A stretch of DNA of 64,000 nucleotides from Methanococcoides methylutens MM1 (GTDB lineage: Archaea > Halobacteriota > Methanosarcinia > Methanosarcinales > Methanosarcinaceae), in the NCBI RefSeq assembly GCF_000970325.1, contig NZ_CP009518.1, positions 558,001 to 622,000 of the forward strand, in the 5' to 3' direction. Below the pieces are notes generated by a model. That model worked only from the letters and a program-made list of their open reading frames with translations, was not told the origin of the DNA and did no database searches. The translations under genes were made by a program, and so were the position numbers. Of this stretch, positions 30,324 through 37,978 are shown piece after piece (within the stretch, counting starts at the first letter, position 1; every line of letters starts with the position of its first letter).

Positions 30324-30469
30324 TGGCTATTTTTTTGTCTTTTCAAGGCCAAAAATCACTACTTTTTCTTCAATTTCCCCTTTGTCGCAGACCTTTTTGG
30401 GATTTCGAACAAAAGGTTTAAAACCCATAAGTGCATTAGGAGGATTCGTGCGTCGAAGCACAATCAAGT

Positions 30470-30542
30470 GCCGCTATAACTCAGTTGGTAGAGTGTCTGG
30501 CTGTTAACCAGAATGTCACAGGTTCGAGCCCTGTTGGCGGCG
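30470..30542 (+). tRNA. tRNA-Asn (GTT)
   Basis: The acceptor GCCGCTA pairs with TGGCGGC (discriminator G). The anticodon arm is TCTGG-CTGTTAA-CCAGA with anticodon GTT at 30503-30505. The T arm is ACAGG-TTCGAGC-CCTGT. All arms pair well, and there is no intron. Confidence 0.95.
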
Positions 30543-30563
30543 TATTCTACTTCCTTTTTTTGA

Positions 30564-30638
30564 GGGCCTATAGCTTAGTCAGGTTAGAGCGCCCGGCTCA
30601 TAACCGGGCGATCACCGGTTCAAATCCGGTTAGGCCCA
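30564..30638 (+). tRNA. tRNA with CAT anticodon, probably tRNA-Ile2 (AUA-decoding)
   Basis: The acceptor GGGCCTA pairs with TAGGCCC (discriminator A). The anticodon arm is CCCGG-CTCATAA-CCGGG, and the T arm ACCGG-TTCAAAT-CCGGT. The anticodon CAT would be Met by default. The GGGCC acceptor and A73, though, resemble archaeal tRNA-Ile, where C34 is modified to agmatidine to read AUA. I favour Ile2, with elongator Met as the alternative. Confidence 0.85.
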
Positions 30639-35476: not shown

Positions 35477-35495
35477 TTGATTGATTGATTGATTG
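35468..35495 (+). repeat. tetranucleotide microsatellite (ATTG)7
   Basis: Seven perfect copies of ATTG begin in the last codons of the DUF2209 gene and run through its stop. Every reading frame meets TGA within 12 bases of such a repeat, so changes in copy number cannot fuse the flanking genes. Confidence 0.95.
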
Positions 35496-35571
35496 TCCAG
35501 TTGTTCGTTCGGCTCCTTTATTGAATGGATACCGGATCACCTGTCTTTATTGTTCGTTACAAGGTAGTAAT

Positions 35572-36822
35572 ATGAGAAAAGCCATTGTTGTCCAGCGTAA
35601 TGACCCGAATGCCGATGAGGCTGAGAATGAGCGAAAGCTGGCGGAACTTAAAGAGCTTGCACATGCTTCCGATTACACTGTAGTGGGGTCAATGGTACAA
35701 TCACGTTATCCTGATCGGAAGTACCAGGTAGGTCGTGGTAAGGTGGAAGAGCTTGCGGAGCTTGTGGAAGCCCTGGAAGCTGAGAAGGTTATCTTTAACA
35801 ATCAGCTTTCAACTACCCAGATCTATAATATTTCCGAGACCTGCAAATGTGAAGTGATGGACAGGTTCCAGCTAATCCTTGAGATATTTGCTGCAAGGGC
35901 TACCACCAGGCGTGCAAAACTGCAGGTGGAGCTTGCAAAATTACAATATGAGCTTCCTAAGGCGAAATCCATCGTCTCCCTGCTCAAGAAGGAAGAGAGG
36001 CCGGGGTTTATGGGTCTTGGAGGTTATGAGGATTCCTATGAGCAGGACATAAAGAAAAGGATAGTCAGGATCAGGACCGAGCTCATGCACTCCTGCAAGG
36101 GAAGTGAATCCCTTCGGACCTTCAGGCATGAGAGGGGATTTTCCCTTGTGGCACTGGCAGGATATACGAATGCAGGCAAAAGTACTCTTTTCCAGTTGCT
36201 TGTGAAAGAAGGGACAATAGTGGAGGATATGCTCTTTACTACATTGTCCCCGACAACACGTTCTCTTACGATCAACCAGCGCAAGGTTCTTTTGACAGAT
36301 ACAGTGGGATTTATTGAGGATCTCCCGCACTGGATGGTAGATGCTTTCAGGTCAACTCTTGATGAGATCTTTTTGGCCGATATGATTCTTCTTGTGGTGG
36401 ACATGAGCGATCCTGTTGATGTCATCAGACAAAAGCTGGCGGTAAGTCATGATATATTCTGGAAGAGGACAGGAGGTGCTACGATAGTCACAGCTCTCAA
36501 TAAGACCGACCTGCTACCAGATGAGCAACTGCAGGAGAAACTGGATGCTATTAGTTACCTTGCTCCGAATCCGGTGATGATCTCCGCAGTGTCGGGTCAG
36601 GGCATTGATGAACTTAAGCAGCTTCTGTACAAAAAACTGCCTAAATGGGAACATTCTCATATTTCCATTCCCATGTCCGAAGAAGGTATGTCTATGGTCT
36701 CATGGCTTTATGATGAAGGAATAGTTCATTCTATCGAATACGGGGATTCTATAATTATGGAAATAGAGGCACGAAATGAGATCATTCAAAAAGTAAAACA
36801 ATTCGAAATCTCTTCTGAATAA
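35572..36822 (+). CDS. hflX: GTPase HflX
   Basis: HflX is a ribosome-binding GTPase, linked to splitting of stalled ribosomes. The 416-residue product has the N-terminal HflX domain with YQVGRGKVEEL and a helical linker (ATTRRAKLQVELAKLQYELP). The G domain follows with GYTNAGKST (G1), DTVGF (G3) and NKTD (G4). The ATG at 35572 follows AAGGTAGTAAT. The frame is open upstream into the ATTG repeat, but those codons look non-coding. Confidence 0.93.
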   Translation: MRKAIVVQRNDPNADEAENERKLAELKELAHASDYTVVGSMVQSRYPDRKYQVGRGKVEELAELVEALEAEKVIFNNQLSTTQIYNISETCKCEVMDRFQLILEIFAARATTRRAKLQVELAKLQYELPKAKSIVSLLKKEERPGFMGLGGYEDSYEQDIKKRIVRIRTELMHSCKGSESLRTFRHERGFSLVALAGYTNAGKSTLFQLLVKEGTIVEDMLFTTLSPTTRSLTINQRKVLLTDTVGFIEDLPHWMVDAFRSTLDEIFLADMILLVVDMSDPVDVIRQKLAVSHDIFWKRTGGATIVTALNKTDLLPDEQLQEKLDAISYLAPNPVMISAVSGQGIDELKQLLYKKLPKWEHSHISIPMSEEGMSMVSWLYDEGIVHSIEYGDSIIMEIEARNEIIQKVKQFEISSE

Positions 36823-36845
36823 TATTAAATGAAATCTGATATTCG

Positions 36846-36872
36846 TTCGTAATAACACGAAAAGTTTATAAA
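36846..36872 (+). promoter_or_regulatory. promoter of small RNA 1: dyad + TATA
   Basis: A dyad TTCGT-N6-ACGAA (36846-36861) is followed at once by AAAG and TTTATAAA (36865-36872). The first base of the closing stem (36895) is 26-27 bases from the TATA centre, the normal archaeal start distance. Confidence 0.7.
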
Positions 36873-36894
36873 CGTTGGGAACGTTTGTATAATT

Positions 36895-36981
36895 GCGAAC
36901 GGGTTTTCTTAATAAATCCTCTTAAGTACTACACCACAAATCCCCAATGTAATCGACTTGATTCACCCCGTTCGCCTTTTT
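36895..36981 (+). ncRNA. putative small RNA 1 (about 87 nt)
   Basis: GCGAACGGG (36895-36903) pairs perfectly with CCCGTTCGC (36967-36975), followed by CTTTTT, an intrinsic-terminator-like end. The interior is mainly unpaired and C-rich (ACTACACCACAAATCCCC), with a small AATC-GACTT-GATT hairpin. There is no open frame. The C-rich part contains CACC, which could pair with GGTG Shine-Dalgarno sites; this is an inference. Confidence 0.72.
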
Positions 36982-37078
36982 GCTATTTATCCTCTATTTT
37001 CTTTGTTGTTCAGTATGGAAAGCTGTGCAAAACATTCGTTATGTCTTCTTAATAATATTAACAGATGCTTAATATTCG

Positions 37079-37104
37079 TTCGCATTTATGCGAAAAGTTT
37101 ATAT
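37079..37104 (+). promoter_or_regulatory. promoter of small RNA 2: dyad + TATA
   Basis: The dyad is TTCGC-N6-GCGAA (37079-37094), followed by AAAG and TTTATATG (37098-37105). Compared with copy 1, both arms changed together (T/A to C/G), so the symmetry is kept although the spacer differs. Confidence 0.7.
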
Positions 37105-37127
37105 GTGTTTGAAACGTTTGTATAATT

Positions 37128-37212
37128 GCGAACGGGTTTCTTCATACATCCCCTAAGTACTACACCACAAATCCCCTATGTAATCGACTTGATTCACCCC
37201 GTTCGCTTTTTT
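37128..37212 (+). ncRNA. putative small RNA 2 (about 85 nt)
   Basis: The same 9-bp closing stem (37128-37136 with 37198-37206) is followed by TTTTTT. From TAAGTAC to the end it matches copy 1 except for one base in the interior and the tail. The 5' loop is two bases shorter and differs at several positions. Confidence 0.72.
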
Positions 37213-37300
37213 ACATTTATCCTCCTATTTTTTCTTTTTTGATCAATTATGCAAAGCATTCTTCAAAAACTTTATAACAGGAGAGCACTGCATTCACTAT

Positions 37301-37978
37301 ATGCGTATTGATCTTCACGTTCATTCCTGCTTTTCAAAAGACAGCAATGCCAGCTTAGACTCCATTCTTGAACATGCAAAGAAGAATGGTCTGGATGGGA
37401 TTGCTATATGTGATCATGATACACGTGAGGGAGGCCTTGCCTGTGTTAAAAGGGCAAAGGAAGTGGGTTCTGATATTATTGTGATCCCGGGTATAGAAGT
37501 TACTTCTTCTAAAGGTCATATCCTTGTACTTGATCCCGATGGGGACATTGAATCAGGTATGACTCCTGAGAAGACCATAGAGCGTGCAAGGGAACTTGGT
37601 GCAGTTGTAATAATCCCCCATCCTTTCAAGATCACCTCACATGGTATTGGCTATGTTGAAGGACTCGATGCCGATGCTGTAGAGGTGCTTAACTCCAGGT
37701 GTGTTACAGGTGGCGCTAACAACAAGGCAAAAAGAGTAACCGGGGAACTTGGAATTCCACAGGTGGGTGGCAGTGATGCACATGAAGTGAAAATGGTGGG
37801 CTGCTCCTATACTGAGGTTGATGCTTCAGAAAGGACTCCTGAAGCCGTACTTCAGGCCATACGTGATGGAAGGGTAACTTTCGGAGGGCGCAGAACTCCT
37901 GTTTCTTATGTTTTAAAACAGGTTATAGTTGGTAGAATAAAAAAAGCTAAGCTTGCTTTAGGTATCCGAACCGGATAA
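37301..37978 (+). CDS. PHP-domain phosphoesterase
   Basis: The 225-residue product has the PHP metal motifs LHVHSCFSKDS at the N-terminus, ICDHDT, PGIEVTS, IPHPF and GGSDAHE. It is therefore a complete metal-dependent phosphoesterase domain of the YciV/TrpH type. Substrates may be nucleotides or 5'-phosphorylated oligonucleotides. It lies about 90 bases after the second small RNA and probably has its own promoter. Confidence 0.88.
   Translation: MRIDLHVHSCFSKDSNASLDSILEHAKKNGLDGIAICDHDTREGGLACVKRAKEVGSDIIVIPGIEVTSSKGHILVLDPDGDIESGMTPEKTIERARELGAVVIIPHPFKITSHGIGYVEGLDADAVEVLNSRCVTGGANNKAKRVTGELGIPQVGGSDAHEVKMVGCSYTEVDASERTPEAVLQAIRDGRVTFGGRRTPVSYVLKQVIVGRIKKAKLALGIRTG

Follow-up and report, generated by a model that had tools for sequence, protein, structure and literature searches.

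The question raised by this locus is what is made from two tandem units that lie between an hflX gene and a PHP-domain gene of Methanococcoides methylutens MM1, and which regulator controls them. An earlier note on the same DNA, a stretch of 64,000 nt here called the window, took them for duplicated small-RNA genes with promoters of their own, and the dyad, TATA box, 9-bp stem, T-run and 233-bp spacing that it described are all found where it placed them (Table 1). The units occupy 36846-36981 and 37079-37212, and in each the dyad and TATA box are followed by a 9-bp panhandle, with arms GCGAACGGG/CCCGTTCGC that are the same in both copies, and by a T-run, T5 after the stem of copy 1 and T6 after that of copy 2. 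The stems start at 36895 and 37128, the TATA centres lie 26-27 bp 5′ of each, and the predicted RNAs are ~87 nt (copy 1) and ~85 nt (copy 2) long; ACTACACCACAAATCCCC is common to the two loops with no differences. The element GTTTGTATAATT stands directly before the predicted +1 (36883-36894 and 37116-37127), and the promoters designated type I and type II are alike in this respect. Tandem genes for tRNA-Asn and tRNA-Met are found elsewhere in the window, at 30469-30638.

Table 1. Features of the two units and their flanking genes, in window positions.
Feature	Position	Strand	Remark
hflX-type GTPase gene, conserved upstream neighbour	35485..36822	+	Pfam GTP-bdg_N, HflX_C; synteny
Predicted MsvR box, copy 1, TTCGTAATAACACGAA	36846..36861	+	begins 49 bp before predicted +1; motif per PMC3729527
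TATA box, copy 1, TTTATAAA	36865..36872	+	right after BRE-like CGAAAAG; position conserved in relatives
Promoter-proximal element GTTTGTATAATT, copy 1	36883..36894	+	similar in type I and type II genes
Panhandle stem 5′ arm, copy 1, GCGAACGGG	36895..36903	+	
Loop, copy 1, G-poor, mostly unpaired	36904..36966	+	
Panhandle stem 3′ arm, copy 1, CCCGTTCGC	36967..36975	+	
T-run, copy 1, terminator-like	36977..36981	+	
Predicted MsvR box, copy 2, TTCGCATTTATGCGAA	37079..37094	+	
TATA box, copy 2, TTTATATG	37098..37105	+	
Panhandle stem 5′ arm, copy 2	37128..37136	+	
Loop, copy 2, G-poor	37137..37197	+	identical to loop of single-copy gene in relative G004
Panhandle stem 3′ arm, copy 2	37198..37206	+	
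T-run, copy 2	37207..37212	+	
PHP-domain protein gene, conserved downstream neighbour	37301..37978	+	Pfam PHP, PHP_C; synteny

Both RNAs fold better than 200 of 200 dinucleotide shuffles (z -3.4 and -3.6) and hence pair more than chance would have it. A DNA search finds the unit in other genomes of the genus. Of 186 genomes of the order, 66 carry the exact stem pattern, every one of them within the window's own family, and the reversed control has none. Since a set of exact matches cannot show variation in the stem, a covariance model was built and the family was searched with it; 93 of 112 genomes match at E 0.5 or better, and the new matches carry other stems, among them GTGAGCGGG/CCCGCTCAC, ATGAGCGGG/CCCGCTCAT, ACGAGCGGG/CTCGCTCGT and GCTGACGGG/CCCGTCAGC. 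For 25 sequences of several classes, chosen as matches to this first model and thus favouring paired stems, 99.1% of stem cells are paired, with two-sided changes in 5 of the 9 stem pairs (29 cells), and sliding the stem partner as a control lowers the pairing to 25-49%. The inner CGGG/CCCG pairs are nearly invariant across the same 25. The compensatory changes were not built in, because the first model had been trained on a single stem sequence. Judged by comparison of the aligned arms, the conserved panhandle is an RNA stem. The earlier note had staked its proposal on relatives preserving the stem, TATA box and T-run, and had pointed to a search for further copies and covariation; the relatives keep the stem, the TATA box and usually the T-run, and the search brought both more copies and compensatory stem changes. 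With this recurrence, these changes and folds that beat shuffles, the identification of the two units as small-RNA genes with their own promoters is well supported, so far as sequence can speak to it. That they belong to no known RNA family is borne out by the Infernal/Rfam comparison the earlier note had called for: Rfam 15 has no match at the gathering threshold for either unit or for the paralogues, the best matches of the units being chance hits to miRNA models far below threshold, and neither ARAGORN nor the tRNA model detects a tRNA or tmRNA in the units.

In most of the Methanosarcinaceae genera sampled, homologues are flanked by hflX and a PHP-domain gene. The order hflX-RNA-PHP is seen in genomes of Methanosarcina size (g7), in g11, g5 and g14, and in Methanolobus where the gene is of type II; hflX also adjoins the RNA at the g3 and g12 loci. 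So constant a place between two genes would suit a cis element that yields no RNA of its own and serves either hflX, as a terminator or processing site of its mRNA, or the PHP gene, as its leader; this is very improbable, given that each unit has its own TATA at a fixed distance, that the PHP gene has a TATA-like sequence of its own near 37270, and that the type I genes of Methanolobus, like the other classes, have unrelated neighbours. It is barely conceivable that the units encode a short peptide, as an mRNA or a dual-function RNA: some M. mazei sRNAs are translated (PMC11456600), but here the loop lengths of close relatives differ by non-multiples of three, the copies contain the start-stop ATGTAA, and by inspection no reading frame is kept across relatives. 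The tandem pair is present in the window genome and a near relative (G008), with one copy in G001, G004, G005 and G007. Copy 1 looks like a derived duplicate, unless a copy has been lost in the other genomes; it seems the derived one because it is copy 2 whose loop equals that of the G004 single copy.

The dyad in each promoter is TTCG-N8-CGAA, identical to the box published for MsvR, a repressor with HTH and V4R domains that responds to thiol redox state and is unique to methanogens (PMC3729527). Binding of TTCGN7-9CGAA by the M. acetivorans protein (MaMsvR) requires the reduced state, and its box B covers the BRE alongside the TATA box, where binding was inferred to repress; the motif alone is insufficient, since a TTCGN8CGAA inside M. 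acetivorans rpoK showed no binding in vitro (PMC3729527). Among class-A genes, 34 of the 35 type I promoters have the box start at -49 and the remaining one at -48, counts that are not independent, as type I promoters are mutually related, and that are drawn from several genera; the box is present in 0 of 16 type II promoters. Apart from the box, the TATA box and a GTTTGTAT element, the type I promoter region diverges. Throughout the 2.39-Mb genome, TTCG-N8-CGAA-N3-TTWATA has 2 sites, both of them these promoters, and the reversed control has 0. In Methanosarcina, the same box-TATA pattern picks out the msvR promoter. The same layout is also seen in Methanolobus G013 (box at G013:C1:1522447) before an Fe-S_biosyn (PF01521) gene, L202:1144-1473, a candidate MsvR target on that ground.

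The earlier note had described the dyads as covarying, their arms having changed together (TTCGT/ACGAA against TTCGC/GCGAA). This is so for the two copies, but it does not extend to 35 relatives, in which the outer position varies freely (T/A 13, T/G 13, C/A 7, C/G 2) and only the TTCG...CGAA core is fixed. Arm covariation was therefore rejected, and the dyad is better described as a fixed, predicted MsvR-binding box. The window genome itself encodes MsvR (G000:C1:838742-839464; 45% identity, HTH_5 and V4R domains), and in the promoter of this gene TTCGGATACTACCGAA precedes CTTTTATATA with a gap one base shorter than that of the sRNA promoters. In G023, a g14 genome whose only gene of this class is a box-less type II gene, the msvR promoter is likewise without an exact box. 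G018 and G019 have neither a detectable msvR match nor a match to model R2 (see below), those of G018 being weak evidence in a genome only 80% complete. Box-less type II genes occupy the hflX-PHP locus itself in Methanolobus and g14, and thus the RNA does not depend on MsvR control.

In the window, then, a TTCGN7-9CGAA repeat sits by the BRE and TATA box of an AT-rich promoter, and msvR is in the same genome. The layout is that of the known MsvR promoters, those of M. acetivorans msvR and M. thermautotrophicus msvR/fpaA, where the DNA is AT-rich and TTCG-N8-CGAA covers the BRE, adjoining the TATA box; the published MsvR targets are protein genes, whereas the units here are non-coding RNA genes, and no report of an MsvR-boxed sRNA was found in the open literature. 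From this promoter architecture we strongly infer that MsvR controls both sRNA promoters. The dyad might instead be bound by another regulator, of the ArsR/TrmB type or the “cold box” factor proposed for Methanolobus sRNAs, with a trigger other than redox. MsvR binding is known to depend on context (PMC3729527), and a “cold box” is reported upstream of nine cold-induced sRNAs in M. psychrophilus (PMC5378194). Nonetheless, the dyad agrees fully with the MsvR box in its N8 spacing, its TTCG/CGAA core and its place over the BRE, and the msvR promoters of these genomes likewise carry the box next to their TATA, so that such a regulator is distinctly improbable.

What the RNA would act upon is harder to read. 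The loop, ~60 nt and C-rich, is largely unstructured, as follows from a G content averaging 2% in type II and 8% in type I. For 59 window genes selected with a simple script, pairing of the loops with start regions is ~2 kcal/mol stronger than pairing with coding sequence, but this preference is no greater than that of composition-matched shuffled loops (30 shuffles; loop1, loop2 and both own-genome paralogues). The real 16S tail beat its shuffles in the same test, in which start codons had been chosen with the help of that tail, to its advantage. A specific anti-Shine-Dalgarno sequence was rejected, since the loops gain no more from start regions than their shuffles do; the C-richness suggests a general leaning towards purine-rich ribosome-binding sites, with no evident fixed anti-SD motif. 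The earlier note had suggested that a CACC-containing segment could mask GGTG ribosome-binding sites, and had proposed target prediction with the C-rich segment. The prediction was run and yielded no conserved target: shuffled loops do as well, and the 30 loci examined for the conserved ribosome-binding target TTGTGGTG-N-ATG contained no convincing site, nearly all hits lying within coding frames, hflX included. One such site (L368, G006) precedes a 418-aa frame and was not seen in other species.

That shuffled loops pair equally well with start regions would also be expected of a protein decoy or scaffold, in which panhandle and C-rich loop titrate an RNA-binding protein (Lsm, cold-shock or TRAM-type) in a CsrB-like or Y-like manner. 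The nearly invariant CGGG/CCCG pairs, and a core, CCCCCACTCCCC, that recurs across families as a protein site would, speak for such a role. On the other hand, class A loops differ strongly between genera yet remain G-poor, and a single protein site in the loop should have left a motif common to all classes, of which none was seen; we regard the decoy as unlikely, if worth keeping in mind.

The best explanation, and in our judgement a likely one, is that the units are an oxidation-induced pair of trans-acting sRNA genes, switched by MsvR, with loops that pair with mRNAs. The RNA genes and their stem, the promoter layout and box position, the synteny and the presence of msvR can be read directly in the genomes compared. 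From its own TATA promoter, each copy would yield an ~85-nt RNA with the 9-bp panhandle, a ~60-nt open C-rich loop and a U-run end. By analogy with the published biochemistry of M. acetivorans MsvR, the reduced protein would repress, excluding TFB/TBP from its place on the BRE next to the TATA and keeping the genes off under reducing conditions; oxidation would release it from the DNA and allow synthesis of the RNA. The loop, once made, would pair in trans with G-rich parts of mRNAs, most probably at ribosome-binding sites or close by, and lower the translation of its targets; this pairing and its targets we only infer.

The two units do not stand alone. A second covariance model, R2, which covers all classes, has matches in 166 of the order's 186 genomes, frequently 3-6 copies in each. 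In a draw from the whole phylum, matches beyond the order were scarce and weak, the best at about 1e-4 (the E-values of these short-calibrated models are rough), and a broad contig scan returned chance matches, mostly to high-GC bacterial sequence. Matches in other families of the order share one plan, consisting of RYGAGCGGG, a U-rich stretch, CCCCCACTCCCC and a closing arm. Of 21 members from these families, 18 have a TATA-like sequence at -34 to -24 but only 3 have one at a control position, and this is independent support because the promoter is not part of the model. The units themselves have a covarying closing stem like RYGARCGGG/CCCGYUCRY, a G-poor, C-rich loop and a TATA ~26-32 bp before the stem, as family members do, and two further members are encoded in the window genome (G000:C1:26487-26543 on the minus strand and 2053466-2053518 on the plus strand).

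Other members form tandem arrays at G158:C1:553613-554369, G156:C1:3260952-3261449, G041:C28:17768-18325 and G041:C153:26454-26699; duplication is therefore common in the family. Class B members in Methanolobus and g6 (L252, L266) have in both genera a Sua5/YwlC-like gene on one side and an Mrp-type antiporter operon on the other, as assigned by eye from the translations. Two genomes of another family, f5, each have one member (L325, G102:C190:96-147; L347, G054:C95:25600-25654) with TTCG-N8-CGAA at -20, not -49, and the TATA near -50; there the dyad could be a box that overlies the start site, or else form a hairpin at the 5′ end of the RNA. These matches suggest a large family of panhandle sRNAs, multi-copy across the order and absent from Rfam. 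It is an evenly balanced proposition that the gene pair is the redox-switched branch of this family, with one scaffold under different promoters and relatives of the scaffold in the order's other families, and that MsvR drives an sRNA network for the response to oxygen.

The nearest published RNAs are M. mazei sRNAs 41, 154 and 162, which act by pairing. Like the window units, sRNA41 and sRNA154 are intergenic and independently transcribed (predicted, for the window), come from the same archaeal family and have been proposed to mask ribosome-binding sites; they respond to nitrogen, and sRNA154 is described as having two stem loops. A class-B member could be sRNA41. M. mazei also has duplicated homologous sRNAs, sRNA162 and sRNA171, but these are 191 nt long with three stem loops and are reported only in Methanosarcina (PMC3510493). 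Bacterial OxyS, a trans sRNA induced by oxidative stress and acting on many mRNAs, is a functional analogy under a different regulator. Members of the family may already stand, unnamed, in the transcript lists of M. mazei or M. psychrophilus. The window RNAs are likely archaeal trans sRNAs of a new scaffold family, with a redox repressor as the likely switch.

The locus bears on the question of how strict anaerobes, methanogens among them, detect oxygen and live through it. To our knowledge, MsvR is among the few dedicated redox regulators of methanogens to have been studied, and in Methanosarcina the only direct target established for it is its own gene. The sRNA genes give it a precise and conserved candidate target that is an RNA. 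If this reading is true, they would represent a class of riboregulators in which MsvR, known only for protein genes, drives sRNAs; and the wider family, if true, would be a large archaeal sRNA family with several copies per genome, a common scaffold for riboregulation in methane-cycling archaea.
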